Source: Hyphomicrobiales bacterium
GTDB lineage: Bacteria; Pseudomonadota; Alphaproteobacteria; Rhizobiales; Xanthobacteraceae
NCBI GenBank assembly: GCA_017305535.1
Contig: JAFKKN010000011.1
Location: 1-64,000, forward strand
Direction: 5' to 3'
DNA length: 64,000 nucleotides
Part shown: piece after piece, positions 30,515-61,639 of the stretch
Layout of the letters: every line of letters begins with the position of its first letter
Position numbering within the stretch: the first letter of the stretch is position 1
The notes under the pieces: generated by a model
Database searches by the model: none
Told to the model about the DNA's origin: nothing
Seen by the model: only the letters and a program-made list of their open reading frames with translations
Program-made: the position numbers and the translations under genes

Positions 30515-30529
30515 AAAGCCCCGGTCTAT

Positions 30530-30562
30530 TTACTATTGCGTAAGTTGTATACTCATGGGTAA
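30530..30562. promoter_or_regulatory. Candidate TetR operators in the tetR/aidB-like divergent region
   Basis: Two inverted repeats lie between the divergent genes: TTACTATTGCGTAA (30530-30543) and ATACT-CATG-GGTAA (30549-30562). The second matches the ATACY-N4-RGTAT consensus described for the 48-58 kb region except in its last base. Either could bind the adjacent TetR protein. Confidence 0.4.
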
Positions 30563-30594
30563 CATTGTGGTCAATGGTACACAGGAAGGCGCCA

Positions 30595-45928: not shown

Positions 45929-48481
45929 ATGGCCGTTCGCAGACTGTCGCAAGAGCAGGTCGCCACGCGAGTAGCACGTCTCCGCTGGCACGAGGAACGC
46001 TTGCTGCGGCGCGCCATCAGGCTGGCCCGCATGGGTTATTGGGAATCGGAGAGTCCTGACGCGACCAGTTTCTGGATATCGCCTGAACTCGCCGCCTTCT
46101 ACGAATTCGAGACCGCCGACGGTTTCATTCCAATCGCCACGGTACGCGAATGTTACCTGCCCGAAAGCCGAGAGGTTCTGGCGGCGCATTACGCGGCCTG
46201 TTGGGCCGGGGGGCGGCCTTATGCAGTGAACACGCGGCTCCGCAGGTTCGATGGCAGCCTGCTCGACTGCGTGGTGCATGGCGAGCCGGAATTCGATACG
46301 CACGGTCGGGTCCAGCGCGTGTCCGGCATTGTTCGCGACGTCACGGAGGAGACCTCCGCGTTGCGGCGCCTGGCGGAGAGCGAGCAGCGGCTGGCCGATT
46401 TCGTCAGCACTGCCTCGGACTGGTGTTGGGAGAGCGACGCTACTCATCGGCTGCTGCCTTATCGCCAGTCGCTTGTGGGCAATGCAGCCTTTCAGTCAGT
46501 GGCGGCCGGCGGGCGGGCGCGTTGGGAGCTCGCCTATGCGCCCGAGGACGCCGACGCCATGGCACGGCATCGGGCCGACATGGAAGCTCACCGTCCTTTC
46601 CGTGACTTCACTTATACGCTGATCGGTCAGGACGGATCGCGGATCAGCATCCGCACCAACGGCAAGCCTATCTTCGCTGAGGACGGCACGTTCCTCGGCT
46701 ATCGTGGCACCTCCAGCGACATCACCGAGTTGAGGGCGGCGGAAGCCAAGCTCGACGAGCGCACTCGGGCTCTGCAAGAGGCGCATCGGCTCGGCAAGAT
46801 CGGCACGTGGAGCTACCGGCTGGACACCGGCCGTTCGGTGTGGGCGCTCGAGCTTTACCAGCTTCTCGGTCTCGACCCCAACACGTTCGAGCCGAGTCAC
46901 GACAGCACCAAACCCTACTTCCTCGGTGACGATGCCGCGCGTTTCCTGGAATTGCAGAAACGGGTCCTCCGCACCCATGGGACCGAGGCTATCGATCTGC
47001 GTATCCAGCATCCGGATGGCACGCTCCAAGATCTGGCGGTTATCTGCAAGGCGGATATCGCCCATGATCGGGTCATTGGCATCATAGGCACGGTGCAGGA
47101 CGTCACCGAGCGCAAGAAGGCCGAGCGCCAGCTCGAACTGCTGGCCTACAGCGATCCGTTGACCGGCCTTGCCAACCGCGCGTTGTTCAAACGCCAACTT
47201 GCCGCTCTGATCGAGGGGCGCGCGGTGGGGAGCCAAGGCGGTGCGCTGCTCCTCATCGACCTCGATCGCTTCAAAGAGGTCAACGATTCCCTTGGCCATG
47301 CCGCCGGCGACGAATTGTTGATCCGGGTGGCGGCTGCGCTACGGTTGGAACTGGGGCCGCGGGCCTTCATTGCCCGGCTCGGAGGCGACGAATTCGCTGT
47401 GCTGGCAGAAGAATGCGGCATGTCCGACGCCGCGCTGACCGGACTTGCCGACCGGCTCATTGCTAGGCTGTCCGGCCCCGTCGATCTCACCGAGGGTGAG
47501 GCCTTTATCGGCGCCACCATCGGCATTGCCCGTCTGCCGGAGCATGGGACTACGGCAGAGACTGCCATGCGCAACGCGGATTTGGCGCTCTACATGGCCA
47601 AGGAGGCCGGCCGCGGCCGGGCGCAACTGTTCGAGCCGATCTATGCCCAGACGGTCGAGCAGAGGCTTGATCTCGGGCGGCATTTGCGTCGCGCCGTGGA
47701 GACCGGCACGCTTCAGGCCCATTACCAGCCGCAGGTGGATTTGAGGACGGGGCAAGTCACCGGTTTTGAGGCGCTGCTGCGTTGGACCCATCCCGAGCGT
47801 GGGCCAATCTCGCCGGCGGAATTCATCCCCATCGCCGAAAGCTCCGGGCTCATCGTCGATCTCGGCCTGTGGGTGCTGCGCGAGGCCTGCCGGCAGGGGC
47901 GCACGTGGCTGGATGCCGGGCTGCCACCGCGCTCCGTCTCGGTCAATGTCTCGCCGGCCCAGATCTGGAGCATGGATTTTGAAACGGCGGTTTCGGCCGT
48001 GCTGGGGGAGACCGGCTTTCCGGCGGAACTGCTCTGTCTGGAACTGACCGAGAGCCTGTTCGTGGACCATACCGAGCAGCGGATCAGCCACACGCTGACG
48101 GCGCTATCACGGCTCGGCGTCCGGCTCGCGCTGGACGATTTTGGGTCGGGCTATTCCTCGCTCGGCTATCTCACGCGTCTGCCCTTCGACCGGTTGAAGG
48201 TGGATCGCGCCTTCGTGGACGGCATTTCCACGGCGCCGGAGAAGCGCAAGCTGCTCGGCGGCATCATCGCTCTGTCGCGCGGACTGGGCATGACGGTGGT
48301 AGCGGAGGGGGCCGAACTGCCGGCCGAGGCGGACGTGCTCGGCGAACTCGATTGCGATCTGGTGCAGGGCTTCGTCTTTTCCCGGCCTGTCGCTCCTGAC
48401 GAGGCGCCGCTGGTGGCCGCCGGCATCGAGCGCGAGATGTGCCGGATGCAGCCTATCCGTCGTCAGACAATTTGCGATTGA
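45929..48481 (+). CDS. PAS-GGDEF-EAL protein (bifunctional c-di-GMP enzyme)
   Basis: The 850-residue protein makes and/or degrades cyclic di-GMP. Three PAS/PAC sensor modules occupy roughly 30-150, 155-270 and 275-395 (each ends in a VRDVTEE, SDITELR or VQDVTERK type PAC end). The GGDEF domain (about 400-560) has an intact RLGGDEFAVL active site and LIDLDRFKEVNDSLGH. The EAL domain (about 575-825) has FEALLRW, ELTESLF, DDFGSGYSSLGYL and QGFVFSRP. Both active sites look intact, so net activity cannot be told. It has no membrane segment, so it senses cytoplasmic signals. Confidence 0.95.
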   Translation: MAVRRLSQEQVATRVARLRWHEERLLRRAIRLARMGYWESESPDATSFWISPELAAFYEFETADGFIPIATVRECYLPESREVLAAHYAACWAGGRPYAVNTRLRRFDGSLLDCVVHGEPEFDTHGRVQRVSGIVRDVTEETSALRRLAESEQRLADFVSTASDWCWESDATHRLLPYRQSLVGNAAFQSVAAGGRARWELAYAPEDADAMARHRADMEAHRPFRDFTYTLIGQDGSRISIRTNGKPIFAEDGTFLGYRGTSSDITELRAAEAKLDERTRALQEAHRLGKIGTWSYRLDTGRSVWALELYQLLGLDPNTFEPSHDSTKPYFLGDDAARFLELQKRVLRTHGTEAIDLRIQHPDGTLQDLAVICKADIAHDRVIGIIGTVQDVTERKKAERQLELLAYSDPLTGLANRALFKRQLAALIEGRAVGSQGGALLLIDLDRFKEVNDSLGHAAGDELLIRVAAALRLELGPRAFIARLGGDEFAVLAEECGMSDAALTGLADRLIARLSGPVDLTEGEAFIGATIGIARLPEHGTTAETAMRNADLALYMAKEAGRGRAQLFEPIYAQTVEQRLDLGRHLRRAVETGTLQAHYQPQVDLRTGQVTGFEALLRWTHPERGPISPAEFIPIAESSGLIVDLGLWVLREACRQGRTWLDAGLPPRSVSVNVSPAQIWSMDFETAVSAVLGETGFPAELLCLELTESLFVDHTEQRISHTLTALSRLGVRLALDDFGSGYSSLGYLTRLPFDRLKVDRAFVDGISTAPEKRKLLGGIIALSRGLGMTVVAEGAELPAEADVLGELDCDLVQGFVFSRPVAPDEAPLVAAGIEREMCRMQPIRRQTICD

Positions 48482-48739
48482 TCTGACGTTTCCAGACGAG
48501 CGTTAAATCGCCGGCTCATTCTCTCGACTTCAGCGCATCGGCATCAACGCCACCAACGCGACGGCGGGCGGGCAATCCGTTCATGAGCGTGCGGAGCAGG
48601 CCTGACTTCGTGCGACCGAAGATCATCAAGAGGGAATCCGGATCACCGAGAAGCGGCGGATTCCCGATTCCAAAGGCAGATAAATCCGGAACCGATTGAA
48701 GCAGAGGGTGCGTCTCCGACGCCCGCGCATTGGCGTCGC
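48482..48739. other. Intergenic region upstream of the monooxygenase promoter
   Basis: A minus-strand frame of 76 codons (48516-48746) ends its 5' side at the operator described next. It has no recognised domain and I do not call it a gene. Nothing else is seen. Confidence 0.35.
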
Positions 48740-48780
48740 TTGACATATACTGTTTAGTATATTTTTATATCCACAAGAAT
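48740..48780 (+). promoter_or_regulatory. Promoter and tandem ATACY-N4-RGTAT operator of the monooxygenase gene
   Basis: TTGACA (48740-48745) and TTTTAT (48763-48768) form a -35/-10 pair with a 17-bp spacer. A perfect palindrome ATACT-GTTT-AGTAT (48747-48760; it extends outwards to ATATACT/AGTATAT) fills the spacer. A weaker copy, ATATC-CACA-AGAAT, begins exactly 20 bp further at 48767. Repressor binding here would block RNA polymerase. The same arrangement occurs near 51.4, 54.6 and 57.9 kb. Confidence 0.7.
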
Positions 48781-48821
48781 ATAAACGCCGCCGACCGCGG
48801 AACCGTCAACGAGGACTGAAA

Positions 48822-50279
48822 ATGGAGCAGGCTTCCTTCAAGGTCGCAATCATCGGCGCGGGCGCCTCCGGTATCGCCACGGCGGTCAATCTGAAGCGCA
48901 TGGGCATTCCATTCGTGATCTTCGAGCGGGCCGACGATGTGGGCGGGACGTGGCGCGATAACGCCTATCCCGGCCTGGCCTGTGACGTGCCCTCGCACCT
49001 GTACCGGTTCTCGTTCGCCCCCAATGCCGAGTGGAGCCACGAATATTCTCCGGGAGGTGAGATCCACGCCTATTTTCGTGATGTCGCGAAACAGCGCGGC
49101 ATCATGGAGCATGTCCGATTTTCCAGCGAAGTGACGGAAGCCCGCTTCATCGGCGAGGGACAATGGCAGATCAGCACCACGAAGGGCGATGGTGGTCTGT
49201 TCAATGCGATCGTGCTCGCCACCGGGATTCTGCACAAAGCCGTTCTACCCAGCATCGAGGGGCGTGACAGCTTCGCCGGAACGGCGTTTCACAGTTCGCG
49301 CTGGGATCGCGATCTTTCGCTCGCCGGAAAGCGGGTCGGCATCATCGGGACGGGCTCGACCGCCACGCAGATCCTGCCGGCGATCGTCGATGACGTCGCA
49401 TCCGTCTCGCTGTTCCAGCGGACGCCGCAGTGGATTCTCAATGTTCCGAACAACCGGTTCGCCGAGGAGAAGAAACAGGCTTTCCGGACGGAACCGGGCA
49501 AGATGGCGGATCTCTACAACCATCTCAACTTCGTCTTCAACGAACGCTTCGCGGCAGCCCTGGTCGGCGAGAATGATGAAGGACTGGCCGAGATGGCGCG
49601 CATGTGTCGGGAGAACCTTGAGCAGAACGTCCACGATCCCGAACTTCGCGATCGTTTGACGCCGTCCTATCAGACCGGCTGCAAGCGCCTGATCGTTTCG
49701 GACAAGTTCTATCCCGCGATCCAGCGCGAGAACGCGCACCTGGTCGATACGCCGATCACGCGCATCGAGCCGACCGGCATTCGGACCGAGGACGGCGTTC
49801 TGCACGAACTCGATGTGATCGTCTATGCGACCGGCTTTGATCCTTTCGCGTTCTTCCGTCCGGCGGTGATCATCGGTCGCGACGGCGTCTCGCTGAACGA
49901 GCGTTGGAGGGAATCCTGTCAGGCCTATCGCTCGGTGGCGGTGCCGGAGTTTCCAAACCTGTTTTTTGTCGGTGGACCGAACAGTCCGATCGGAAATTTC
50001 TCGTACCTGCGAACGGCCGAAGTTCAGATCGGTTACGTGATGGAGCTGATCAGGCGGCTCGCCGACGGAAACTATCGCGAGGTGGAGCCGACGCAGGAGG
50101 CAACCGATGCGTTCAATGCCGAAGTCGAGCAGGCTATCACGCGCACGGTCTGGGTCACCGGCGGATGCACGAGCTGGTACTTCGACAAGCGAGGGAAGGT
50201 CGTGTCCTGGCCATGGTCCTACGGACGGTTCAAGGCTGATCTCGAGCAGCCACGCATGGAAGAGTTCAAGGTCGCCTAA
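48822..50279 (+). CDS. Flavin-containing monooxygenase, Baeyer-Villiger type
   Basis: A 485-residue class B flavoprotein monooxygenase. The first Rossmann motif is IIGAGASGIATA (FAD) and the second IIGTGSTATQILPA (NADPH). Between them FAGTAFHSSRW fits the type I Baeyer-Villiger fingerprint F-x-G-x3-H-x3-W. DDVGGTWRDNAYPGLACDVP and YATGFDPFAFF are also typical of this group. Such enzymes turn ketones into esters or lactones. With SDRs and an acyl-CoA ligase nearby it suggests degradation of a cyclic or branched alcohol/ketone; no lactonase or esterase gene is seen in the cluster. Confidence 0.9.
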   Translation: MEQASFKVAIIGAGASGIATAVNLKRMGIPFVIFERADDVGGTWRDNAYPGLACDVPSHLYRFSFAPNAEWSHEYSPGGEIHAYFRDVAKQRGIMEHVRFSSEVTEARFIGEGQWQISTTKGDGGLFNAIVLATGILHKAVLPSIEGRDSFAGTAFHSSRWDRDLSLAGKRVGIIGTGSTATQILPAIVDDVASVSLFQRTPQWILNVPNNRFAEEKKQAFRTEPGKMADLYNHLNFVFNERFAAALVGENDEGLAEMARMCRENLEQNVHDPELRDRLTPSYQTGCKRLIVSDKFYPAIQRENAHLVDTPITRIEPTGIRTEDGVLHELDVIVYATGFDPFAFFRPAVIIGRDGVSLNERWRESCQAYRSVAVPEFPNLFFVGGPNSPIGNFSYLRTAEVQIGYVMELIRRLADGNYREVEPTQEATDAFNAEVEQAITRTVWVTGGCTSWYFDKRGKVVSWPWSYGRFKADLEQPRMEEFKVA

Positions 50280-50400
50280 AGCGCTTTTGAGCGAAATGGG
50301 TACCGGTTCGCATGAAGACAACGCATCAAGGCAACAGGCTGGAGTCCCGTTCCGATTTCATTGGAACAAAAATGGCTCCAGGCCGAAGTGCGAACATTCG
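50279..50400. repeat. Dispersed intergenic palindromic repeat (Bradyrhizobiaceae type)
   Basis: Starting AAAGCGCTTTTGAGCGAA, then GGGTACCGGTTCGCATGAAG and AACGCATCAAGGCAACAGGC, and ending in the palindrome GTTCCGATTTCATTGGAAC, this matches in form an intergenic repeat I know from Bradyrhizobium/Rhodopseudomonas genomes. It sits right after the monooxygenase stop. Such copies may act as transcript-end structures. Identity rests on memory of the family; only one copy is in this window. Confidence 0.5.
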
Positions 50401-50466
50401 GGTCAAGTGCAAAAAACTCGCAAGCGGAATGACATCGGAGTTCAACGACCGAGGGAGTGAAAGCAG

Positions 50467-51216
50467 ATGAAGCGCACGGTAATGGTGACGGGATCGTCGC
50501 AAGGTGTCGGCCTTGGGATCGCCAGGGTTTTCCTCAATCACGGATGGCGGGTTTTCGGTGTCGACCAGAAGCCCGCCGAGGCGAGCCTTCAGTCCCACGA
50601 GGATTATCAACACGCTGTCGCCGATCTTCGCGACGTCAAGGCGTGCGAGACAGTGATGGAAAGTTGTCTTGCCGGAAGCGGAAAGCTCGATGCGCTGGTC
50701 AACAATGCGGGGCTCGGTAATGCGCGCGGTTTTTTGGAGACGAGCGACGAGGACTATGACCGCTACTACGACATCAATGTCCGTCCGGTTATCCGGCTGT
50801 GTCGCCTGGCGTTGCCAGCACTGAAGCAATCGCAAGGCTCGATCGTCAACATCGCTTCGGCATTCGGGCTCATCGGCGCCGCGGGAAGCGCCGCCTATGT
50901 TCCGACCAAATTCGCGGTTGTCGGGATCACCAAAATGCTGGCGACCGAGTTCGGCCGTGACGGGATTCGCGTTAACGCGGTGGCTCCCGGTCTGATCTGG
51001 AGTCCCGGCACCGACGAGCGGATCAGGACCAACGCTTGGTGGCATCGCATGATGATCGAGGAGTGTCCGCTCGGTCGCGTCGGCCAGCCGGAGGAAATCG
51101 GCGAGGCGTGCGCGTTCCTGGCGTCGAGGGCCGCGAGCTTCATCAACGGCGCCATTCTGCCGGTCGACGGCGGATGGTCCATCGCGAAGTTTCTGCCACT
51201 TCCGGCGGAAGCGTGA
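50467..51216 (+). CDS. Short-chain dehydrogenase/reductase (classical SDR)
   Basis: A 249-residue SDR with TGSSQGVG (about 8-15), NNAG (about 79-82), catalytic Ser in NIASAFG and Tyr-Lys in YVPTK. GVDQKP after the second strand has the Asp that favours NAD(H). It lies downstream of the monooxygenase on the same strand and could oxidise a secondary alcohol to the ketone substrate. GAGGGAGTGA precedes the ATG. It may be transcribed with the monooxygenase, although the repeat lies between. Confidence 0.9.
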   Translation: MKRTVMVTGSSQGVGLGIARVFLNHGWRVFGVDQKPAEASLQSHEDYQHAVADLRDVKACETVMESCLAGSGKLDALVNNAGLGNARGFLETSDEDYDRYYDINVRPVIRLCRLALPALKQSQGSIVNIASAFGLIGAAGSAAYVPTKFAVVGITKMLATEFGRDGIRVNAVAPGLIWSPGTDERIRTNAWWHRMMIEECPLGRVGQPEEIGEACAFLASRAASFINGAILPVDGGWSIAKFLPLPAEA

Positions 51217-51417
51217 CAGGAGGCGATCCCATGATCCGCGCGGTGAGGCTGTTGCGTTAAGCGCCGAGCGGGTCGGGCATAATGTCTGGCAGTAACGCGG
51301 TCGGGTGCACTCGAACGCGTTCGCGCGAACCGTATGGCGGGGCGACGCTGTGACCAAGACGCGCATCCCGACGCTTCGACAGCGTCGGAACGCTTGATAT
51401 CTTGTCGGCCCAAAATT

Positions 51418-51451
51418 ATACTATTGAAGATAAAAAAATACTATTTGGTAT
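51418..51451 (+). promoter_or_regulatory. Tandem ATACY-N4-RGTAT operator upstream of the binding-protein gene
   Basis: Two copies start 20 bp apart: ATACT-ATTG-AAGAT (51418-51431, partial) and ATACT-ATTT-GGTAT (51438-51451, 9 of 10 arm positions). The coding start is 51492, so the copies fall in the promoter region. Confidence 0.65.
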
Positions 51452-51491
51452 AAACGAGAGTCCCCGCTGACATTCTCGATGGAGGAAATTG

Positions 51492-52715
51492 ATGCGTCCC
51501 TTCGCTGTGGTTGCCTTGGTCTGTGGTTTATCGCTCTCCGGCCTGTCCTTGCCCGGACCCGCGCGGGCGGATGGTCCTCCCCTCAAGATTGGTGTGCTTG
51601 AGGATATGGCGGGGCCATATGCCGATCTGTCGGGCAAGGGCTCGGTCATCGCCGCGCAAATGGCGGTCGAGGATTTCGGCCCTGTGCTGGGACGCAAGGT
51701 CGAACTCGTGACCGGCGATCATATGAACAAGGCCGATATCGGGGTCGGACTCGCGAAGCGCTGGATCGACGTCGATAACGTCGAGATGATCACCGGCCTC
51801 AGCAACTCCGCTGTCGCGCTGGCAGTGCGCAACGTGGCGTCGGCGAGCGGCAAGATCGATATCGTCAATGGTGCCGGTTCGAGCGACCTGAGCGGCAAGG
51901 CCTGTACGCCGACCTCGTTCCACTGGGTCTACGACAGCTACGGTCTCGCCAAGACGATCAGCGTGGCGACGGTACGCGCTGGCGGCGATTCGTTTTACAT
52001 GGTTCTGGTCGACTACGCATTCTCGACGGCGATGTCCCGCGACGGCACCCGCTTCGCGGAAGCCGCGGGCGGAAAGTCGGTCGGCAGCGTTCGCGTTCCA
52101 TTGAACACGGCGGACTACAGCTCCTTCATTCTTCAGGCGCAGTCCTCGAAGGCGAAAGCATTCATACTGGCGCTCGCGGGCGCGGACTTCATCAATTTCG
52201 TCAAGCAGGCGCGCGAGTTCGGTCTCGACAGTGGCGGACAGAAGATCGCGTCCTACATCGCCTACAGCAACGACATTCATGCGCTCGGCCTGAAGGTGGC
52301 GCAGGGGTTGCTGCTGTCGGAATCGTTCTACTGGGATCTGAACGACAAGACCCGCGCCTTCTCAAACCGGTTCTATGCCGTGGCCAAGAAGATGCCAAAC
52401 AGCATGCAGGCCGGCGTCTACGGCTCGGTGACGCACTATCTCAAAGCGGTGAAGGCGGCGGGAACCACCGATGCCAAGATCGTGGCCGCCAAGATGCGGG
52501 AAATTCCCGTCAATGATTTCATGACGGACAACGGCAAGATCCGCGTCGACGGTCGGCTGCCGCGCCCGATGTATCTGTTCCAGGCCAAGACGCCGGCCGA
52601 GTCCAAGGGCGAGTGGGATATCATGAAGCCGGTTCAGACACTCTCCGCGGACGAGGCGACGCGGCCGCTGTCCGAAAGCGAGTGTCCGCTCGTCAAGGCC
52701 GCCGATGCGAAGTAA
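51492..52715 (+). CDS. ABC-type periplasmic binding protein, Leu/Ile/Val family (orphan)
   Basis: A 407-residue type I binding protein with a signal peptide ending near ARADG. It is a close paralogue of the protein at 56686-57897 and a more distant one of that at 3132-4337. Shared motifs are KIGVLEDMAGPYADLSG, DHMNKADIG, GKACTPTSFHWVYD, FYWDLNDKTRAFSNRF and the C-terminal RPLSESECPLVK. The Cys in GKACTP and the Cys in CPLV are present in all three and may pair. No transporter subunits are encoded here. GGAGGAAAT precedes ATG 51492. A strong terminator follows at 52791. Confidence 0.9.
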   Translation: MRPFAVVALVCGLSLSGLSLPGPARADGPPLKIGVLEDMAGPYADLSGKGSVIAAQMAVEDFGPVLGRKVELVTGDHMNKADIGVGLAKRWIDVDNVEMITGLSNSAVALAVRNVASASGKIDIVNGAGSSDLSGKACTPTSFHWVYDSYGLAKTISVATVRAGGDSFYMVLVDYAFSTAMSRDGTRFAEAAGGKSVGSVRVPLNTADYSSFILQAQSSKAKAFILALAGADFINFVKQAREFGLDSGGQKIASYIAYSNDIHALGLKVAQGLLLSESFYWDLNDKTRAFSNRFYAVAKKMPNSMQAGVYGSVTHYLKAVKAAGTTDAKIVAAKMREIPVNDFMTDNGKIRVDGRLPRPMYLFQAKTPAESKGEWDIMKPVQTLSADEATRPLSESECPLVKAADAK

Positions 52716-52790
52716 TCGTCAGGCGTGAGACGTTGCGCGAATCCACCTGCGGGCGTAGATATGACGCAGCTTGAGATATCCATAAAACAG

Positions 52791-52816
52791 CCCCGCCTTT
52801 GAGATCAAAGGCGGGG
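52791..52816. terminator. Bidirectional intrinsic terminator
   Basis: CCCCGCCTTT and AAAGGCGGGG form a perfect 10-bp stem with a 6-base loop between convergent genes. TTTTGTTTT follows on the plus strand; on the minus strand TGTTTTATGG follows, so it probably works for both the binding-protein and the ligase transcripts. Confidence 0.9.
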
Positions 52817-52863
52817 CCGTTTTGTTTTCGATCGGCAGTCGTCGCTGAGCCGTTTCGAACGCG

Positions 52864-54498
52864 CTATGCGTTCTCGAGATTCAGATCCAGTTCCCGTAAG
52901 GCGCGGTCGCGCAGGAAAACGCGCTGGACCTTGCCGGATGCCGTCATCGGCAGGACCTCGACCGGCACCACATGATGCGGAATCTTGAAGCTGGCGATCT
53001 TGCCTTTGCACCGTGCCTTCACGTGTTCGAGCGAACACGTCGCGCCCGGCTTCAGGATCACATAGGCACATGGCACTTCCGCAAGCCGCGGATGGGGCAC
53101 GCCCACCACCGCGACCTGCTCGATTTCCGGTACCAGCGCCATCAATTCCTGTTCGAGCGCCGCCGGGGAGACGTTCTCGCCACCGACCTTGAGCATTTCC
53201 TTGTAGCGTCCGAGGAACTGGAGAAAGCCGTCGGGCCGCAAGTAACCGCGGTCGCCGGTGAGCAGCCAGCCGTCAGCGTTGAATGTGGCCGCCGTCGCTT
53301 CGGGGTTGCGAAAATATCCGCGCATGACGGTATAGCCGCGCAGCGCGATTTCACCCTCGACATTGGGAGGCTGCTCCGCGCCGGTGGCGGGATCGAAGAT
53401 CTTGAATTCGAGGCCGCTCAGTGGGCGGCCCGATGTGGTCGTGCGTTGCTCCTCGGTGTCGTCCATCGCACTGATGCAGACGTAACATCCCGCCTCCGAC
53501 ATGCCCCAACCGGTCGCCGTCGGGCACAACGTTTTTTGCACCTGCGCCGCGACAGCGTTGGAGTTCTCCATGCCTGCCGGCAGCCCGCCGAAGCGCAGGC
53601 TTGACAGGTCGCCGTTCAGGCGCGCCTGCGCGCGCATGATGTCGGCGTAATGAACCTCGAAACCGAAGAGCCCGGTGACGCGCTCGTTCTCGATCAGCCG
53701 GATCGCCGCATCGGCATCCCAGTTCTCCATGAGAATCTGCCGCGCGCCGGTATACATGCTGCCGAACATCATTTCCGACATGCCGAAGACGTGGAACATC
53801 GGCAGGAAGTTGAGAACGACGCTGCCTTCCTTCAGCGGCCAGATGTCGTGCCGCTCGCAGATGCTCCGCAGCAGCGTGTGATCGTGCATGGCGGCTTTGG
53901 GGTTGCCGGTGGTGCCCGACGTGAAGACGATCAGCGCGATGTCGTCGAGCTTCACCTCCGCTGCGGCCTTCGCCAGTTCGTCCGGCGAAACCTTGTCGGC
54001 GTCCGCGAGGAACCGCTCCCATGACAAGGGGCCGTTGTCGGGCGTGTCGCTCATGATGACGATATCGGCAAGATGGGGGAAAGTTTCGGTACGCGGCACG
54101 CGCACGCCGTCAAAACCCGGAATCACGGCCTTCAGGATTTCGACATACTCGATCGGGCCGGAACGTTCGACGACGAACAGCAGCTTGCACTCCGCCAATT
54201 GAAGCGCGTAGGCGAGGTCGTGTTCACGATAGCGGGTGTTCATCGGTGCGCCGATGGCGCCGATCCGCAGTACCGCGTACAGCGCGATGGTGAACTCGAT
54301 GCGATTTGTCACCCAGAGGCCGACGACGTCGCCTCTGCGCACGCCGCGCGCCAGCAGCGCCCGCGCGGCGCGGTCGATGGCGTCGTCGAGTTCGCCGAAG
54401 GTCAATCGCGCATCGCGAAAGGTGACCGCGATCTCGCTTCCCCAGCGTCGGGCCGCGATCCCTGGCAGATCACCAAATCTCAATGCTGATGTGGACAT
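52864..54498 (-). CDS. AMP-forming acyl-CoA ligase
   Basis: A 544-residue ANL-family ligase beginning MSTSALRFGDLPG. The P-loop is IVFTSGTTGNPKA (about 173-185), followed by GWGMSEAGCYV, LTGDRGYLRPDGFLQFLGR, YKEMLKVGGENVSP and PMTASGKVQRV. It resembles fatty-acid/cyclohexanecarboxylate-type CoA ligases. ATG 54498 has AGGGAG upstream; the frame to 54579 reaches into the promoter. It is controlled, by position, from the operator at 54598-54631, and could activate the acid made after monooxygenase and ester cleavage. Confidence 0.88.
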   Translation of the reverse strand: MSTSALRFGDLPGIAARRWGSEIAVTFRDARLTFGELDDAIDRAARALLARGVRRGDVVGLWVTNRIEFTIALYAVLRIGAIGAPMNTRYREHDLAYALQLAECKLLFVVERSGPIEYVEILKAVIPGFDGVRVPRTETFPHLADIVIMSDTPDNGPLSWERFLADADKVSPDELAKAAAEVKLDDIALIVFTSGTTGNPKAAMHDHTLLRSICERHDIWPLKEGSVVLNFLPMFHVFGMSEMMFGSMYTGARQILMENWDADAAIRLIENERVTGLFGFEVHYADIMRAQARLNGDLSSLRFGGLPAGMENSNAVAAQVQKTLCPTATGWGMSEAGCYVCISAMDDTEEQRTTTSGRPLSGLEFKIFDPATGAEQPPNVEGEIALRGYTVMRGYFRNPEATAATFNADGWLLTGDRGYLRPDGFLQFLGRYKEMLKVGGENVSPAALEQELMALVPEIEQVAVVGVPHPRLAEVPCAYVILKPGATCSLEHVKARCKGKIASFKIPHHVVPVEVLPMTASGKVQRVFLRDRALRELDLNLENA

Positions 54499-54597
54499 TG
54501 CATTTTCTCCCTCGAAGCTCGCTTCGATTGATATCTTCTCACGGATCGTTGCCGTTGTCGCCGTTGGACGGCCGAACACTTCACCGTCAGAGACTAT

Positions 54598-54631
54598 ATA
54601 CTTATTGGATTTAAAGTATACTTTATAGTAT
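54598..54631. promoter_or_regulatory. Tandem ATACY-N4-RGTAT operator in the ligase/SDR divergent region
   Basis: A perfect copy, ATACT-TTAT-AGTAT (54618-54631), and a partial copy, ATACT-TATT-GGATT (54598-54611), again start 20 bp apart. They lie about 100 bp upstream of the ligase start (54498, minus) and 150 bp upstream of the SDR start (54781, plus), so they may serve both genes. Confidence 0.7.
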
Positions 54632-54780
54632 GCATGATCTCGTTCGGTTACGAAGACATCGATCTCTCAGCCAACGGTTTCCGCACCGAGCGGGCCGACC
54701 ACGGCTGACATTATCCGGTTCCATGACGGCGTTTCAGGTCGCCATGGCATCTGCGCTTTTGAACATGATTTGAGAAACGA

Positions 54781-55833
54781 ATGTATCTTCGATTGTCTCG
54801 CAAGGGCCGCGTCAGTCTGCATCGGCCGGATCGCACGGATGAGGTTACGATTATCGCCGAGCGGAGCGATGATTTATCCGATCTGCGTCGTCGCCTCGAA
54901 ATTTTTGGAGAGATCGAGGGCGATTTTTCGGCTGTGCGCATCGATGTTGTCAGGCTGCGGGAGATCGTCGCGAGTGATGGCACTGGAGGCGGGCGGGACG
55001 TGGCCTCGTGGCTGGATGCGCAGGCGATGGCAACAGTTCGCGCTCCGGTCAAACTGCTTGCATCGCCTTTGCCACGGGACTACCCGGCCGGGCGTGCAAT
55101 CGTTGTCGGCGGAACGGGCGCGATCGGCTCCGATCTGGTGCGCGTTCTGGCAGAGCGGCAGGTAGATGTCGCTTTCACCACCCGCAAGCTGGATCATCGT
55201 GCGGCGGCATTGCGCGATGAAGTGAGCGAAGGCCCGTCGGCGGTCGAGGCGCATCCACTCGACATTACCGAGGACGGCGCGGCCGAACGTCTGTTTGAAC
55301 GGCTTAACGTGGAGAGGGACGTCCACTCCGTGTTCTTTGCCGCCGGCATCCCTGTCCCGCAGCGATCCGTCAGCGCGGTGTCATGGACCGAATGGGAACA
55401 GGCGGTCAACTTCGAGGTCAACGGCTTCTTTCGTGTCGCGCATGCGGCCGTGCGCATCCTGAAAGCGAACGGCGGCGGCGCGCTTGTCGCGATGACCACG
55501 ATTGCGACGTTGCGCTATCCGCCTCGCGACGGTTTGTCGGGCGCTCCGAAAGCCGCGGCCGAGATGCTTGTGCGCGCCATTGCGCGCGAGGAGGGACGTT
55601 TCGGGATACGTGCCAACTGCGTCGCCCCCGGTCTGATCGAGGGCGGCATCGGGCAGGTCATCATCAACGAGTTCGCCGATGCGCGAGTGCTCGAAGGCAT
55701 TCGCGCCGGCACGCCGACGCGACGCCTTTGCACCGCCCGGGATTGCGCGGAAGCCGCGGCCTTTCTGGCATCTTCGGGCGCAGCCTCCATCACAGGGCAC
55801 GTGCTTCCGGTAGACGGCGGCTTTCACATCTGA
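54781..55833 (+). CDS. SDR-family protein with N-terminal extension and altered active site
   Basis: A 350-residue protein. The first 95 residues form a small separate region without known family (MYLRLSRKGRVSLHRPDR at its start). The SDR domain follows: VVGGTGAIGSDLV for nucleotide binding, NCVAPGLIEGG and HVLPVDGGFHI at the end. The active site is unusual: where SDRs have Y-x3-K this protein has SGAPK (Ser at the Tyr position), and the catalytic Ser is Thr in AMTTIAT. It may be a non-catalytic or differently acting member. Transcribed toward the tetR gene. Confidence 0.8.
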   Translation: MYLRLSRKGRVSLHRPDRTDEVTIIAERSDDLSDLRRRLEIFGEIEGDFSAVRIDVVRLREIVASDGTGGGRDVASWLDAQAMATVRAPVKLLASPLPRDYPAGRAIVVGGTGAIGSDLVRVLAERQVDVAFTTRKLDHRAAALRDEVSEGPSAVEAHPLDITEDGAAERLFERLNVERDVHSVFFAAGIPVPQRSVSAVSWTEWEQAVNFEVNGFFRVAHAAVRILKANGGGALVAMTTIATLRYPPRDGLSGAPKAAAEMLVRAIAREEGRFGIRANCVAPGLIEGGIGQVIINEFADARVLEGIRAGTPTRRLCTARDCAEAAAFLASSGAASITGHVLPVDGGFHI

Positions 55834-56058
55834 TTGCCGGGACTGATCGATCCGAGTCATTTCGGAAGATCGCTCCGATCTACCACCCGGTACATTTGCC
55901 TGAACCGCAATTATGCTATGAAGAAGGGGCGGTTTCGCCAATCACGGTGATTCCGGGAGTCCCGAGCGACATCGGCATTGATCGTGCTGGCAGGGCGGGA
56001 TGAAAGACTTGACGGTACGCCCGGAGATCACGCGCGGCTATCGTCATGAAAGGCAGAC

Positions 56059-56658
56059 ATGAGCGTCAAGGAGCACATCAAGGAATACAAGCGCGAACTG
56101 ATTTTGGACGCGGCTTCCAAGCTCTTCTACGAGAAAGGCTTTCAGAAGACGACGATCGACGATATCGGCGCGGCGCTCGGTGTGACCAAGCCCTTTATCT
56201 ACACCTATTTCGAAAACAAGTACTCGATCCTCGAGCACCTGTTCGATCAAGCCTTTCATGATCTCTATGCGGACGTCATCAAGGTTCTGAACAACAAGGA
56301 AGGCAAGCCACAGGATCGCCTGCAGCGATTTGTCACCGTTTATGTCGAGAAGAACATTGAGCGGCAAAAGATCACGGCGATCATGCTCGAGGAAGAAAAG
56401 AACCTTAACGCCAAGAAAGTTGCCGATATCCGGCGCAAGCAACGTGAGTTTGATGCCAAGCTTGCGCGCCTGATCGAAGAGGGCGTCTCAACCGGGGTAT
56501 TTCATGTGAGCGATCCGATGATCGCGTCTCTCGCGATCAGCGGTATGGTGCGATGGACCCATCGCTGGTACTCCCCGCAGGGGCGGCTCTCGGTGTCGGA
56601 ACTGACGAAGAATCTCAGCACTCTTGCTCTCAACCTCGTCGGGTGCACTCAAAACTGA
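56059..56658 (+). CDS. TetR-family transcriptional regulator
   Basis: A 199-residue protein with a TetR helix-turn-helix (about 12-58: LILDAASKLFYEKGFQKTTI, IGAALGVTKPFIYTYFENK). The C-terminal part is helical (TetR_C of the fatty-acyl responsive kind). It lies in the middle of genes whose promoters share the ATACY-N4-RGTAT operator and is the only regulator within this set, so it is the likely repressor. No copy of the operator was found before its own start. ATG 56059 has AAAGGCAG upstream. Confidence 0.9.
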   Translation: MSVKEHIKEYKRELILDAASKLFYEKGFQKTTIDDIGAALGVTKPFIYTYFENKYSILEHLFDQAFHDLYADVIKVLNNKEGKPQDRLQRFVTVYVEKNIERQKITAIMLEEEKNLNAKKVADIRRKQREFDAKLARLIEEGVSTGVFHVSDPMIASLAISGMVRWTHRWYSPQGRLSVSELTKNLSTLALNLVGCTQN

Positions 56659-56668
56659 GCGCACCCGA
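56639..56668. terminator. Hairpin terminator shared by tetR and the convergent binding-protein gene
   Basis: TCGGGTGC (56639-56646) pairs with GCACCCGA (56661-56668), and inside it CTCA pairs with TGAG, leaving an AAAC loop. The stem spans the tetR stop codon. No long T-run follows, so termination may be partial or Rho-assisted. Confidence 0.6.
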
Positions 56669-56685
56669 TCAAGATTGAAAATCGC

Positions 56686-57897
56686 CTATTTCTTCGCGTT
56701 GGTGATCAGCGGGCATTCGCTTTCGGAGAGCGGTCGGAAGGCTTCGTCGCCGGTCAGCTTCTGGATCGGCTTCATGAGATCCCATTCATCTTTGGATTCC
56801 GCGCGCGACTTGACCTGAAAGAGATAGAAATCCCGCAGCAGGCGGCCGTCTTCACGCACGCGGCCGTTCGTTGTCATGAAGTCGTTGACAGGCAGTTCCC
56901 GCATCTTGGCCGCGACCTGCTTGGCATCGGTCGTCCCAGCAGCCTTGACCGCGGTCAGGTAGTGTTTGACGGCGCTATAGACGCCGGCCTGCATGCTGTT
57001 CGGCATCTTCTTCGCAGCGGTATAGAACCGTTTAGAAAAAGCGCGGGTATTCTCGTCGATATCCCAATAGAACGCTTCCGACAGCAGCAGTCCCTGTGCC
57101 ACGTTCAACCCGAGGGCATGGACGTCGTTCACGAAGGCCACCAGCGAAGCGAGTTTCTGCCCTTGCTCGGTGATTTGAAATTCATGTGCCTGCTTGATGA
57201 AGTTGATGACGTCCTGTCCGGCCATGGCAATGAAGATCGCCTTAGCTTTGGAGCCTTGGGCCTGCAGGATGAATGAGCTGTAGTCGGCGGTGTTCAGCGG
57301 CGTGCGAACGCTGCCCACGGCCTTGCCGCCGGCGGCATCGGCGAAGCGCGATGCATCGCGGCTCATGGCGGCGCCGAAAGCGTAATCGACCGCGACGGTG
57401 AAATAAGTGTCGGCGCCGGACCGAATGGTCGCCGTGCCGACCGTTTTCGCCAGCGCATAGGTGTCCCAGACCCAGTGGAAGCCGGTGGGTGAGCAAGCCT
57501 TGCCGGTGAGATCGCCAGCGCCGCCAGCTGTCACGATATCGATCTTGTTGCTCGATGCCGCGAGGCCGTGGACCGCCAGACTGACCGCTGAATTGCCCAG
57601 GCCGGTGATCATCTCGACGCCATCAGCCTCGAACCAGCGCTTCGCGATGCCCACAGCGGTATCCGCCTTGTTCGAATGGTCCGCCGCGACGACTTCCACC
57701 TTGCGGCCCAGCACCGGACCGAAATCCTCGACCGCCAGTCGGGCGGCGATCACCGAGCCTTGCCCGGACAGGTCCGCATAGGGGCCCGACATGTCTTCGA
57801 GGACGCCGATCTTCAATGACGGTTGCTCCGACCAGGCGATGCCCGGCGATAGCAAAATGGCGCAGGCCAGCAGGAGCCCACCGATAGATTGGCGCAT
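56686..57897 (-). CDS. ABC-type periplasmic binding protein, Leu/Ile/Val family (orphan)
   Basis: A 403-residue protein with signal peptide MRQSIGGLLLACAILLSPGI. It is very similar to the 51492 protein: KIGVLEDMSGPYADLSG, DHSNKADTAVG, GKACSPTGFHWVWD, FYWDIDENTRAFSKRF and RPLSESECPLI. The two copies flank the ligase-SDR-tetR group and are transcribed in opposite directions, which suggests duplication within the cluster. ATG 57897 has GGAGGG upstream; the Met at 57915 lacks this. The operator pair at 57920-57953 lies directly upstream. Confidence 0.9.
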   Translation of the reverse strand: MRQSIGGLLLACAILLSPGIAWSEQPSLKIGVLEDMSGPYADLSGQGSVIAARLAVEDFGPVLGRKVEVVAADHSNKADTAVGIAKRWFEADGVEMITGLGNSAVSLAVHGLAASSNKIDIVTAGGAGDLTGKACSPTGFHWVWDTYALAKTVGTATIRSGADTYFTVAVDYAFGAAMSRDASRFADAAGGKAVGSVRTPLNTADYSSFILQAQGSKAKAIFIAMAGQDVINFIKQAHEFQITEQGQKLASLVAFVNDVHALGLNVAQGLLLSEAFYWDIDENTRAFSKRFYTAAKKMPNSMQAGVYSAVKHYLTAVKAAGTTDAKQVAAKMRELPVNDFMTTNGRVREDGRLLRDFYLFQVKSRAESKDEWDLMKPIQKLTGDEAFRPLSESECPLITNAKK

Positions 57898-57919
57898 GAA
57901 ACCCTCCGTTTCCACATTG

Positions 57920-57953
57920 ATACCGATTAGTATTTTTTAATTTATTACGGTAT
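57920..57953 (-). promoter_or_regulatory. Tandem ATACY-N4-RGTAT operator upstream of the second binding-protein gene
   Basis: ATACC-GATT-AGTAT (57920-57933, 9 of 10 arm positions) and a weak copy ATTTA-TTAC-GGTAT (57940-57953) start 20 bp apart. The stronger copy lies 22 bp upstream of the start codon, where it could block transcription start or early elongation. Confidence 0.65.
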
Positions 57954-58090
57954 CTTTGCCGCAATGGCAACAGATGTTGTGCTGAGCCCACCAACGTTTT
58001 TGAACGATGCATCGTGCGCCAGTTCGCGATCATGAGCGATGTGTCGAGAAAGCGGCTCGAGATTCTCTGCGGAAATGTCGTCGGCTTTCG

Positions 58091-59515
58091 TCAGGATGGC
58101 GTCGCATAGGGTTCGAAGTACGATCGCGTTTCATCGACGTTGAGGTCTCGACCGATCGGTGGGAAGGCGCGCTGCGGACAACCCGAGCGTTCGCAGACCT
58201 TGCATCCCATGCCGATCGGTGTTGCCAACGACGGATCGATGTTCAGGCCTTGGGCATAAATGATGCGGTCGGCATAGCGAACGTCGCATCCCAGCGCGAT
58301 TGCAAAGGTTTTGGTGGGCGCGCCGTACCCGCCTCGACTCTGCGATACGGTCCGGGCGATCCATAAGTAGGTGCGTTCGTCCGGCATTCGTGCCAATTGG
58401 GTGAGAACACGTCCGGGGCTGGCGAACGCCTCGTAAACGTTCCACAACGGGCACGTACCGCCGACGCGTGAGAAGTGAAAATCCGTAGCGGATTGACGTT
58501 TCGAAATATTTCCGGCGCGATCGACGCGGATGAAGAAAAATGGAACACCGCGCGCGTTGTGACGCTGCAACGTGCTCAAGCGATGACAAACGGTTTCGAA
58601 GCCGACGCCGAACTGATGGCCCAGCAATTCGATGTCGTAGCGCCTCCGTTCGGCGGCCTCGAGGAACGTCGCGTAGGGGAGTATGAGCGCTCCGGCAAAA
58701 TAATTGGCTAGGCCGATGCGCGCCAACCGGCGGGATGCGTCGCTGGTGAACGCGCCCTTGTCGACGATCGAACGCAGGATATCATCCTGCTCCAGAATCG
58801 CGATCTGTGTGGCGATCTGGAATGCTTGCTGACCCGGTTGGAGATTGGGCGCGAGACGGAGTGTCCGCGCGGCGGGATCATAGATTCGCTGAACCGCCAG
58901 TCCGGCATCGTCGACGTTATCCGTCAGGACGTTGATCCGGTGACGCTCCTCGAGATAAGTGGAGAGTGCTGACGCCGTGCGGCCGACGGGGAATTGCATC
59001 CGTCTCGCGATAGTTTCGGCGGCTTCATCGAGCTCCCCGATATAATTGTGATGCAGGTAAAAGAAATCCCTGACTTCCTCAAAAGGGGTTGACGGCACCG
59101 TCGCCATCACTGCCTGACGATCTTCCCCCAACCGCGCTGACAGAGCGGCGCTTTGTTCGACCGCCTGACGATACTTGCGATTGAGGTTGACGAGGGCGCG
59201 GCCGACAGCGGGCATGTTGGCTGCAACTTCGCGCAGTTCGGCCTTGGCGATGGTTTCGCCCAGCGCGGGATTTGTCAGCACGTCGCGGAGATCCGAGATC
59301 AGCCGCGCCTCCTCGTCTTCGGCGAAGGATTGCACGTCGAGGCCGAAGGCCGAGTTCAGCGCCAGCAGCACGGGCAGCGTCAGCGGGCGCTGATTGTTCT
59401 CAAGCTGGTTGAGATAGCTCAGTGAAATGCCAAGTTTGGCCGCCAATGCGGCCTGGGTCAGCTTCCGCTGTTCGCGGAGTCGCTTGAGCCTGACACCCAT
59501 GAAGGTCTTTTTCAT
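58091..59515 (-). CDS. ScfR/PrpR-type XRE-family regulator of short-chain acyl-CoA genes
   Basis: A 474-residue regulator. The N-terminal XRE helix-turn-helix is at about 6-60 (LREQRKLTQAALAAKLGISL then SYLNQLENNQRPL). The middle has an ImmA/IrrE-like domain (about 150-330, YDIELLGHQFGVGFETVCHR), and the C-terminus the DUF2083-type domain with a cysteine cluster, MGCKVCERSGCPQRAF. Relatives are ScfR of rhizobia and PrpR/RamB of actinobacteria, which sense propionyl-CoA or other short acyl-CoAs; mycobacterial PrpR carries an Fe-S cluster. It is divergent from the methylcitrate operon. Start 59515 is preferred over 59545. Confidence 0.9.
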   Translation of the reverse strand: MKKTFMGVRLKRLREQRKLTQAALAAKLGISLSYLNQLENNQRPLTLPVLLALNSAFGLDVQSFAEDEEARLISDLRDVLTNPALGETIAKAELREVAANMPAVGRALVNLNRKYRQAVEQSAALSARLGEDRQAVMATVPSTPFEEVRDFFYLHHNYIGELDEAAETIARRMQFPVGRTASALSTYLEERHRINVLTDNVDDAGLAVQRIYDPAARTLRLAPNLQPGQQAFQIATQIAILEQDDILRSIVDKGAFTSDASRRLARIGLANYFAGALILPYATFLEAAERRRYDIELLGHQFGVGFETVCHRLSTLQRHNARGVPFFFIRVDRAGNISKRQSATDFHFSRVGGTCPLWNVYEAFASPGRVLTQLARMPDERTYLWIARTVSQSRGGYGAPTKTFAIALGCDVRYADRIIYAQGLNIDPSLATPIGMGCKVCERSGCPQRAFPPIGRDLNVDETRSYFEPYATPS

Positions 59516-59529
59516 GTAGCACCTTTGAC

Positions 59530-59619
59530 TTTGCAAGCTTTGCAATCCGCTCCTATTTCCTTCGCAAAACTACACAATATCAGCCATTTCCTGTTTCAGT
59601 CTTTGCAGATATTGCGAAG
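59530..59619. promoter_or_regulatory. Candidate ScfR/PrpR binding sites in the divergent prp control region
   Basis: Repeated TTTGCAA-like elements lie between the regulator and operon starts: TTTGCAAGCTTTGCAA (59530-59545), TTCGCAAA (about 59561) and the inverted repeat CTTTGCA-GATAT-TGCGAAG (59601-59619). PrpR/RamB-type proteins are known to bind TTTGCAAA-like sequences. The clustering in exactly this 140-bp gap supports the assignment, but binding is inferred. Confidence 0.55.
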
Positions 59620-59653
59620 TTAAGGCCAAATAGCAAGACGTCGGGAGCACTAA

Positions 59654-60085
59654 ATGCTGGCGAACCATGTCGCAGCCAATCCGCCGGACGAGACGCGGTT
59701 CATGGAGATGATTTTTCCCGATCTCGCCAATCACTACGGCACTCTTTTCGGAGGAAATGCGCTGAGCCTGATGGGCAAGGCCGCATTCATTGCCGCGACG
59801 CGTCATGCCCGTCGCAACGTGGTCATGGCGACGTCGGAGAAAATCGAATTCCACGAACCGATACGCGTCGGCGAACTGATCGAGCTGGTTGCTCGCGTCG
59901 AGCGAGTTGGTCGCAGCTCAATGACTGTCGCCGTCGAGATGATCCGTGAAGACGTTGTCAATGGACTGCGCAAATCGGTCGTGCGCGGGACGTTCGAAAT
60001 GGTCGCCGTCAACGACAGCGGTCGTCCCGTCGCTATCCCCAGGACCACGAACTCGCGTCAACCGGGCAAGGAAATCGTATCGTGA
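59654..60085 (+). CDS. Acyl-CoA thioesterase, hotdog fold
   Basis: A 143-residue hotdog-fold protein. [20 protein letters not shown] holds the family's catalytic-site segment (Asn near the start; the usual Asp position reads Gly-Lys), and [20 protein letters not shown] is the typical second block of YciA/BFIT-type thioesterases. It leads the methylcitrate operon and is coupled to prpD (GTG of prpD overlaps this stop). A thioesterase could release CoA from propionyl-CoA or another acyl-CoA when it accumulates. Start ATG 59654 follows CGGGAG. Confidence 0.83.
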
Positions 60086-61626
60086 AGCAACATATCGTTC
60101 GTACCCATAGATCCGCCGAAGACCTGCAACGCAAGGACCAGCTTGCGTGGAAGATCGCGGAGGTCGCGGCCGATCCGGTGACCGTCGCGCCCGACGTCAT
60201 GGAGATGATCGGCAACCGCATCATCGACAATGCGTCGGTTGCCGCCGCCTCGCTGGCGCGACGACCAGTGGCGAGCGCGCGGGCGCAGGCAGAAGCGCAT
60301 CCATTCCAGCCCGGCGCCACGGTGTTCGGTCTGCCGCAGCGGCAGCGTATCTCGCCGGAATGGGCGGCGTGGGCCAACGGCGTCGCGGTGCGCGAACTCG
60401 ACTTCCACGATACCTATCTCGCCGCCGACTATTCGCATCCCGGCGACAACATTCCGCCGATTCTCGCAGTCGCGCAGCATTGCGGCCTTGACGGCAACGC
60501 GCTGGTGCGCGGCCTTGCCACCGGTTACGAGATTCAGGTCGATCTAGTCACCGGCATCTGCCTGCACGAGCACAAGATCGATCACATCGCGCATCTCGGT
60601 CCGTCTGCCGCGGCAGGTATCGGCACTGCGCTCGGCCTTCCGGTGGAGAGCATCTATCAGGCCGTGCAGCAGGCGCTGCATGTGACGACCACGACGCGGC
60701 AATCGCGCAAGGGCGAGATTTCAAGCTGGAAGGCCTATGCGCCGGCGTTCGCCGGCAAAATGGCGATAGAGGCAGTCGATCGCGTGATGCGCGGTGAGGG
60801 CGCGCCGTCGCCCGCGTGGGAAGGCGAGGATGGATTCATCGCCTATCTGCTGTCGGGACCGAAAGCGGAATACGTCGTGCCACTCCCGGAAAAAGGCGAA
60901 GCCAAGCGCGCCATTCTCGATACCTACACCAAGGAGCACTCGGCCGAGTATCAAAGCCAGGCGTTGATCGATCTCGCGCGCAGGCTAGGTAAAAAGATCG
61001 GCGATCTTTCCAAGGTCGAAAGCATCGTCATCCACACCAGTCATCACACGCACTACGTGATCGGCACCGGCGCCAACGATCCGCAGAAGATGGACCCGAA
61101 GGCGAGCCGCGAAACGCTCGACCATTCGATCATGTACATCTTCGCCGTCGCGCTGGAAGACGGCGGCTGGCACCACGAGCGCTCCTATGCGCCCGAGCGC
61201 GCGGGACGACCGGAAACCGTCGCGCTGTGGCGCAAGATCTCCACGGTCGAGGATCCGGAATGGACGCGGCGCTATCACAGCCGTGATCCGAGGGAGAAAG
61301 CGTTCGGCGGCAAGGTCGTCGTGCACTTGAAGGGCGGCTCGGTCATCACCGACGAAATCGCGGTGGCCGACGCGCATCCGCTCGGCGCGCGCCCGTTCGC
61401 CCGCGAGCAATATGTCGCCAAATTCCGCTCGCTGGCGGACGGCATCATCGTGCCTGCCGAGCAGGATCGTTTCCTTGCGCTGGTTGCGCGATTGCCGGAA
61501 CTGCGGGCTGACGAACTGGGTGGACTGACGTTCACCGTCGATACCGCGCGCCTTGGCGGGCACAGGTCGTCGGGCATTTTCGACTGGCACGGCGCCGGTG
61601 CGCGCCGTTCCGATGCTGCCGAATAA
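60082..61626 (+). CDS. prpD: 2-Methylcitrate dehydratase, MmgE/PrpD family
   Basis: PrpD dehydrates 2-methylcitrate to 2-methylaconitate in propionate breakdown. The 514-residue protein has the PrpD layout: a helical N-domain with [20 protein letters not shown] (substrate and active-site region), [20 protein letters not shown], and a C-terminal alpha/beta lid. The start is GTG 60082, overlapping the thioesterase stop, with AAGGA upstream. It is followed by prpC 13 bp later and prpB, giving a complete cycle except for the methylisocitrate-forming step, which can be shared with aconitase. Confidence 0.93.
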
Positions 61627-61639
61627 CAGGGAGGACACG

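Follow-up and report, generated by a model that had tools for sequence, protein, structure and literature searches.

The window analyzed here, a 64,000-nt stretch of contig JAFKKN010000011.1 from a Hyphomicrobiales bacterium (assembly GCA_017305535.1; whole genome of 4,726,775 bp on 15 contigs), carries a 9.2-kb cluster in which a TetR-family gene lies among genes whose promoters share a palindromic sequence, the candidate operator of the TetR protein. The cluster opens with an FMO-type/Baeyer-Villiger monooxygenase (BVMO) gene (48822 to 50279, plus strand); its product matches an FMO-like Pfam family, has cyclohexanone monooxygenases as its best PDB matches, and contains the sequence FAGTAFHSSRWD, a match to the BVMO fingerprint. 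The BVMO of one orthologous locus, L046, has no match to this expression; the other three tested match. Behind the BVMO gene lie a short-chain dehydrogenase/reductase (SDR) gene, SDR1 (50467 to 51216, plus), and a gene for a periplasmic binding protein, BP1 (51489 to 52715, plus; Peripla_BP_6). An AMP-dependent acyl-coenzyme A (acyl-CoA) ligase gene follows on the minus strand (52864 to 54498; the open reading frame is listed to 54579, with the likely ATG at 54498), then another SDR gene at 54781, the tetR gene (56059 to 56658, plus), and a second binding protein gene, BP2 (56686 to 57897, minus; Peripla_BP_6; reading frame listed to 57915, likely ATG at 57897). No ABC permease for BP1 or BP2 was found among the reading frames scanned in the window and the orthologous loci. 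The orphan-looking binding proteins, together with the BVMO/ligase set, hint at a ketone or lactone pathway.

The product of tetR, the proposed binder, has a TetR_N domain (PF00440, 8.7e-16) followed by a helical C-terminal domain of the TetR_C_24 type (PF17932, 1.3e-31), and its predicted structure is all-helical, with a mean confidence (pLDDT) of 88.8. TetR_C_24 is a broad domain, presumably linked to KstR2. The closest solved sequences, 3dcf (E = 5.8e-28) and PfmR (3vpr; 2.4e-20), are also the top Foldseek matches, and the fold neighbors include AibR with isovaleryl-CoA, and KstR2; the structure search works by fold alone and adds no function.

An earlier note on this DNA had pointed to four promoter regions with the inverted repeat ATACY-N4-RGTAT. 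All four sites are real: the 14-mers at 48747, 51438, 54618, and 57920 match ATACYNNNNRGTAT with 0 mismatches. When the arms are required to mirror each other strictly, two of the four are perfect and the other two differ between arms by a C/T-A/G change, as had been described. To rank the sites, we used a matrix built from 16 sites outside the window and scanned the 64-kb window with it, taking 20 block-shuffled windows as a control. In the BVMO promoter, the strong box (48747 to 48760, plus; rank 1) lies between a predicted -35 element, TTGACA at 48740, and the -10 element and aligns with the boxes of four other BVMO promoters; a weak second box (48767 to 48780, plus; 2 mismatches, rank 9) is found 20 bp downstream. 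The BP1 promoter has a strong box at 51438 to 51451 (plus; rank 2) and a weak one at 51418 to 51431 (plus; 2 mismatches, rank 6), which overlaps a predicted -10 element, TATACT, at 51417. On the minus strand, the ligase promoter has a strong box at 54618 to 54631 (rank 4) and a weak one at 54598 to 54611 (2 mismatches, rank 7), and the BP2 promoter, which could be aligned with other BP promoters, has a strong box at 57920 to 57933 (rank 3) and a second box at 57940 to 57953 (3 mismatches, rank 53), in which the outer half, GGTAT, is perfect and the inner half is degenerate. A fifth box, CTACCACCCGGTAC, which had been missed, stands alone in the promoter of the tetR gene itself (55880 to 55893, plus; rank 5). 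It sits 18 bp ahead of TATGCTATGA, the same placement as in loci L046 and L047, both from Bradyrhizobium, and the tetR promoters of the window, L046, and L047 have one box each, with no second box seen.

The genes assigned to these sites in the earlier note, a BVMO, two binding proteins, and a ligase/SDR pair, stand in part. The BVMO site also heads SDR1; the 54618 site belongs to the ligase, whose orthologues also carry boxes, whereas the SDR at 54781 has matches of only 27 to 42% in the orthologous loci. The distance from box to likely start codon is 42 to 75 bp for BVMO, 38 to 71 bp for BP1, 100 to 133 bp for the ligase, and 23 to 56 bp for BP2. The boxes overlap or adjoin predicted -35/-10 elements, which are good in the BVMO and BP1 promoters but weak in that of the ligase.

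We then scanned offsets of 14 to 80 bp (67 tested) on either side of the exact sites for a partner box. An offset of 20 bp, the spacing that the earlier note had proposed, was the best of the 67 in the window (8, 8, 8, and 7 of 10 positions; mean, 7.75; z = 5.2), a value reached by 0 of 20,000 local shuffles. The same offset was independently the best at the nine orthologous-locus sites with 0 mismatches (z = 4.2; 0 of 20,000 shuffles). Across the window and two Bradyrhizobium species, the BVMO promoters keep the arrangement TTGACATATACT-N4-RGTATATTTTTATATC-N4-AGAATAT, including the arms of the weak box, ATATC-N4-AGAAT, while both N4 centers vary, as would be expected if both palindromes are bound by protein. 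The two halves of the weak box are unequally preserved: the outer half has 10 of 80 mismatched positions and the inner half 26 of 80 in 16 of 19 tandem pairs, the three tetR-promoter rows being dropped since no second box was seen there, one pair (L060) being spaced by 21 bp, two sites (L049 6003 and L074 10100) standing outside the table, and the strong box being assigned by choice in the L048 BP promoter and in L049, in each of which the two boxes carry the same number of mismatches. The outer TAC/GTA core of the weak box is intact in 11 of the 16 pairs. The 57940 box, with its perfect outer arm and lost inner arm, fits this pattern; the BVMO promoters, in which both halves of the weak box are mismatched, break it.

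A whole-genome search, suggested as a check on the motif, found ATACYNNNNRGTAT without mismatch at four places, all within the 9.2-kb cluster, and the reversed control at none. With up to one mismatch, the motif had 71 places and the control 70, so matches of this quality are background. A pattern of one full box with just the outer half of a second was found without mismatch at three places in the genome, all in the cluster; allowing one mismatch added the BVMO promoter, a reverse reading that overlaps the 54618 site, and two places outside the cluster, and allowing up to two gave 14 forward and 13 reverse matches versus 19 and 16 in the control. Another tandem pattern, built differently, found the BVMO site only, versus 3 and 6 places in the control. 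By these one-mismatch and tandem-pattern searches, no further regulon members rose above background elsewhere in the genome. In 60 relatives, the exact motif was not more common than its control (142 versus 201, summed). Among 45 loci, exact matches occurred in L001 to L004 and L016 alone, all from the window, and the 29 loci of TetR homologues (L017 to L045, 2.0 to 3.6 kb each) had none. Within positions 46001 to 62000 of the window there are 4 exact matches, whereas 59 palindromes with rearranged letters have 0.08 on average and never more than 2.

Two analyses addressed the motif by other routes. In the matrix scan, 48747, 51438, 57920, 54618, and 55880 were the top five sites of the window (28.1 to 16.9 bits; best shuffled score, 17.5). 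Among 3,328 palindromic patterns, ATAC-N6-GTAT was the most overrepresented in the window promoters (corrected P = 7e-6) and in the orthologue promoters (2e-16). In a version of the test not limited to promoters, codon-like palindromes ranked ahead of the motif, which came 2nd in the cluster, 3rd in the orthologue cassettes, 17th in whole orthologous loci, 90th in the whole window, and 462nd in control loci.

Four orthologues of the TetR protein were found in genome contigs, 81, 79, 72, and 58% identical to it (two from Bradyrhizobium, one from Camelimonas, and one from a metagenome-assembled genome of the Burkholderiaceae). Their neighborhoods contain orthologues of BVMO (75 to 81%, in three of the four), SDR1 (77 to 80% in L046 to L048, 64% in L049), the ligase (54 to 78%), and the binding proteins (52 to 78%). 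Boxes are present in cassette promoters at all four loci, with 20-bp partners at some boxes in each; exact boxes number four in L046, three in L047, one in L048, and none in L049, which has four one-mismatch matches, three of them (6003, 8656, and 8676) ahead of TetR/SDR and ligase genes. In genome G151, all four exact genome matches precede regulon genes, one of these genes being a ligase orthologue that lies about 18 kb away from the TetR gene; the corresponding fractions are 4 of 8 in G150, 1 of 2 in G152, and 0 of 1 in G153. Two more divergent TetR proteins (54% and 48%) have the TACY-N4-RGTA core in their own promoters, one of which is shared with a divergent BVMO gene. The recognition segment TKPFIYTYF is identical in all seven TetR proteins aligned. 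A 37% identical protein from a same-genus relative has TKRFIYHCF, and no site with up to one mismatch was found in 19 kb around its gene; nine loci of 31 to 37% homologues have only 0 or 1 exact match per 19- to 21-kb locus. Under the E-value limits set, orthologues were found in 2 of 265 genomes of the genus Bradyrhizobium (that of G150), both already in our set, in 1 of 391 genomes of the window's own family, namely its own, and in 2 of 74 genomes of the family of G153, one of which, G743, was new. A plasmid collection yielded 11 records, all below 60% identity. The spread of the cassette across the genomes searched is thus patchy.

The confinement of the motif to the cluster, the offset of 20 bp, the co-occurrence with TetR orthologues, and the ranking by a matrix built outside the window strongly support a local TetR regulon with tandem operators, as the earlier note had proposed, and moreover an autoregulated one, the regulator's own promoter being included at several loci. 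Judged from sequence, the 56059-56658 protein is very probably a local repressor of BVMO-SDR1, BP1, the ligase, BP2, and itself, and its binding to the boxes is a strong inference; repression, cooperativity, and a ligand are likewise inferred. A TetR dimer would recognize ATACY-N4-RGTAT mainly by its helix VTKPFIYTYF. In each structural promoter, the weaker box would hold a second dimer; the centers of the two boxes lie 20 bp apart, or roughly two helical turns, which would place both dimers on the same face of the DNA. Repression would then be steric, by one strongly and one weakly bound dimer; the boxes overlap the predicted core promoter, and RNA polymerase is proposed to be blocked. The tetR gene would be autoregulated through its single box. 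The protein would be released by a metabolite of the pathway, with an acyl-CoA ester formed by the ligase as the most likely candidate; given the acyl-CoA ligase in the regulon, and with AibR/isovaleryl-CoA and KstR2 among the fold neighbors, a CoA ester is the likeliest signal, a proposal to which we give about an even chance.

Several observations weigh against this interpretation. One of the 20 block-shuffled windows reached 17.5, versus 16.87 for the 55880 box, so that this box rests on its conserved position. The sites used to train the matrix had themselves been found with the motif of the earlier note. With up to one mismatch, the motif ranked 4th of 60 palindromes in the window, 3rd in L046, 1st in L047, 4th in L048, and 2nd in L049, and so was not the top one in most. 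The promoter intervals were set by hand after the sites had been seen, which leaves a mild bias in the test of 3,328 palindromes. The 57940 box scores poorly by the matrix. The sites of L048 and L049 are degenerate, that at L048 7084 having 2 mismatches, and no box was found in the stretch read of the L048 tetR promoter. Exact matches also lie outside the cassette in G150 (4 of 8), G152 (1 of 2), and G153 (1 of 1). Finally, in genome G112 the same palindrome surrounds an unrelated TetR gene (see below), and the motif alone therefore does not name the protein.

The window has a second TetR gene (29873 to 30514, minus), whose product is 28% identical to the first, has the segment TKPTIYHYF, and is encoded divergently from an acyl-CoA dehydrogenase-like gene (by eye; region 29873 to 32286). 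Its promoter has the boxes TTACTATTGCGTAA (30530) and ATACTCATGGGTAA (30549), 19 bp apart and ranked 10 and 8 by the matrix, which appear to be a related operator of this paralogue.

Another regulator could bind the boxes of the cluster, either the ScfR/RamB-type protein (58091 to 59545) or the TetR paralogue, and this we consider unlikely. The ScfR gene adjoins the BP2 promoter, and an ScfR-type gene occurs somewhere in five of six genomes; however, tblastn (E limit, 1e-8) found no ScfR match in any of the four orthologous loci, the gene being on other contigs in G150 to G153, and none was found in G743, although the core is present in its TetR promoter. We rejected ScfR as the binder on these grounds. 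The paralogue shares TKPxIYxYF and has similar TAC-N4-GTA boxes in its own divergent promoter, but the box at 30549 ends in GGTAA rather than RGTAT, and an orthologue of the 56059 protein stands beside the boxes in every locus found. We note that these loci were found through that orthologue, so its co-occurrence with the boxes is partly by design.

It is also conceivable that the boxes are simply A+T-rich, promoter-like sequence in which TATACT-like -10 elements are paired by chance, since they do overlap predicted -10/-35 elements. This is the least probable of the alternatives, and we rejected it: the sites are confined to the cluster, the arms are conserved while the N4 varies, the offset is 20 bp, the boxes co-occur with the TetR orthologue across genera, and exact matches number only 0 or 1 per locus at the nine homologue loci. 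An activating role for the TetR protein, or binding without regulation of all five promoters, would suit the differing box-to-start-codon distances; yet repressors usually bind where these boxes lie, over the predicted core promoter, and most TetR proteins with such sites repress. We regard this possibility as slightly less likely than binding by another regulator.

The earlier note knew of no description of this operator. This was mistaken: ATACT(N)4AGTAT is the operator of DarR, the cyclic di-AMP-responsive TetR repressor of Mycobacterium smegmatis, with Lys44 reading the G opposite the C of TxC, Gly45 reading the T, and two dimers on each operator; a G45V change abolishes binding, and residues other than Gly45 are argued to prevent it (PMC10636190). 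The 14-bp palindrome is the same, two of the four window sites fitting strictly and two having one C/G variant arm; Thr43, Lys44, Tyr48, and Lys54 have the same numbers in the window protein, the structural alignment to DarR (8suk) beginning at residue 9 in both; two boxes per operator here parallel two dimers per DarR operator; and both regulators have a site in their own promoter (PMC10636190). The window protein differs in having Pro45 instead of Gly45; Lys44-Pro45 is present in seven of seven aligned proteins, and the Lys44-Gly45 pair of DarR is absent; the DarR dimers sit on overlapping palindromes within one 20-bp site, whereas the sequence here shows separate boxes 20 bp apart. Identity in the fold match is about 22%, the phmmer E value is 2e-11 at best versus 5.8e-28 for 3dcf, and the window regulon is catabolic. 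Diadenylate cyclase (PF02457), the cyclic di-AMP synthase, was found in 0 of 6 host genomes, with 11 of 14 control genomes positive. The low identity, Pro45, and the failure to find a diadenylate cyclase in the six genomes led us to reject orthology with DarR. Seven Pro45 proteins beside the same palindrome or its core nevertheless put the published Gly45 rule to the test (PMC10636190). A broader proposal, for which the balance is about level, is that a Lys-Pro TetR clade reached the 14-bp operator of DarR without Gly45 and binds as two dimers lying side by side at a 20-bp spacing, for which a full box and the outer half of a second, three good half-sites in all, would suffice. In this proposal the regulator and its operators, together with a BVMO/ligase/binding-protein cassette, would move as one unit among distant proteobacteria.

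Among other known systems, 3dcf (a Thermobifida fusca TetR protein) and PfmR (Thermus thermophilus) are the closest solved structures by sequence and fold, at 25 to 30% identity. Local control of acyl-CoA or steroid pathways is shared with catabolic TetR repressors of the KstR2/BkaR/EdcR type. KstR2, a fold match of 20 to 22% identity listed at E of about 8e-9, has a different palindrome as its operator, and no steroid-specific gene set was recognized among the proteins scanned. BkaR controls its own gene and has a pair of palindromes within a single promoter, and its operator, GTTA(N)T(N4)A(N)TAAC, differs from the window boxes (PMC3920632). For EdcR, the proposed operator has TAC-N5-GTA and overlaps the -10 element (PMC8700777). 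The LYS-box of Desulfovibrio, predicted to be the operator of LysX, is the palindrome GTGGTACTNNNNAGTACCAC; it contains TACT-N4-AGTA like the window boxes but has GG before TACT, a proposed regulator of COG1378 rather than TetR, and a lysine-synthesis regulon (PMC545781). Since the operator is known from DarR, and neither this regulator nor its regulon was found described in the literature searched, the novelty lies in the regulon and not in the operator: what is new is the regulon itself, the pairing of boxes at 20 bp with outer half-sites that are better preserved, and the patchy distribution of the cassette, in what is overall a fairly ordinary regulon. A probable catabolic repressor comes to light here along with the genes it would control and a sharply defined operator sequence.

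In G112 (contig 1415, locus L050), four sites with up to one mismatch (7590, 8873, 8891, and 10806) lie around the unrelated TetR gene mentioned above (8077 to 8700), whose product has YSKGAFYSNF, with a Lys-Gly pair, and whose neighbors resemble, by eye, S-formylglutathione hydrolase and alcohol dehydrogenase genes. This TetR protein and the predicted LysX operator (PMC545781) suggest that the TACT-N4-AGTA core may have arisen more than once.

We compared 8 of the 11 plasmid records (H1 to H5 and H7 to H9; H6, H10, and H11 were left out). One, Roseovarius indicus plasmid pRIdsm_01 (L061), encodes a 37% TetR homologue with GVTKPFIYYYM in an acyl-CoA catabolic cluster; its four sites with up to one mismatch (5639, 5805, 12354, and 12478) all fall in two divergent intergenic gaps, a count not above controls (rank 6 of 60; rearranged palindromes reach 8). 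The other seven loci have 0 to 2 such sites. At L049, a single reading frame (6807 to 8612) contains most of the ligase fused to the C-terminal portion of the binding protein, which could reflect either a natural fusion by deletion or a join made during assembly. In the window, the ScfR/RamB-type gene diverges from a PrpD-like 2-methylcitrate dehydratase gene (58091 to 61626), apparently a separate propionate module adjoining the regulon.

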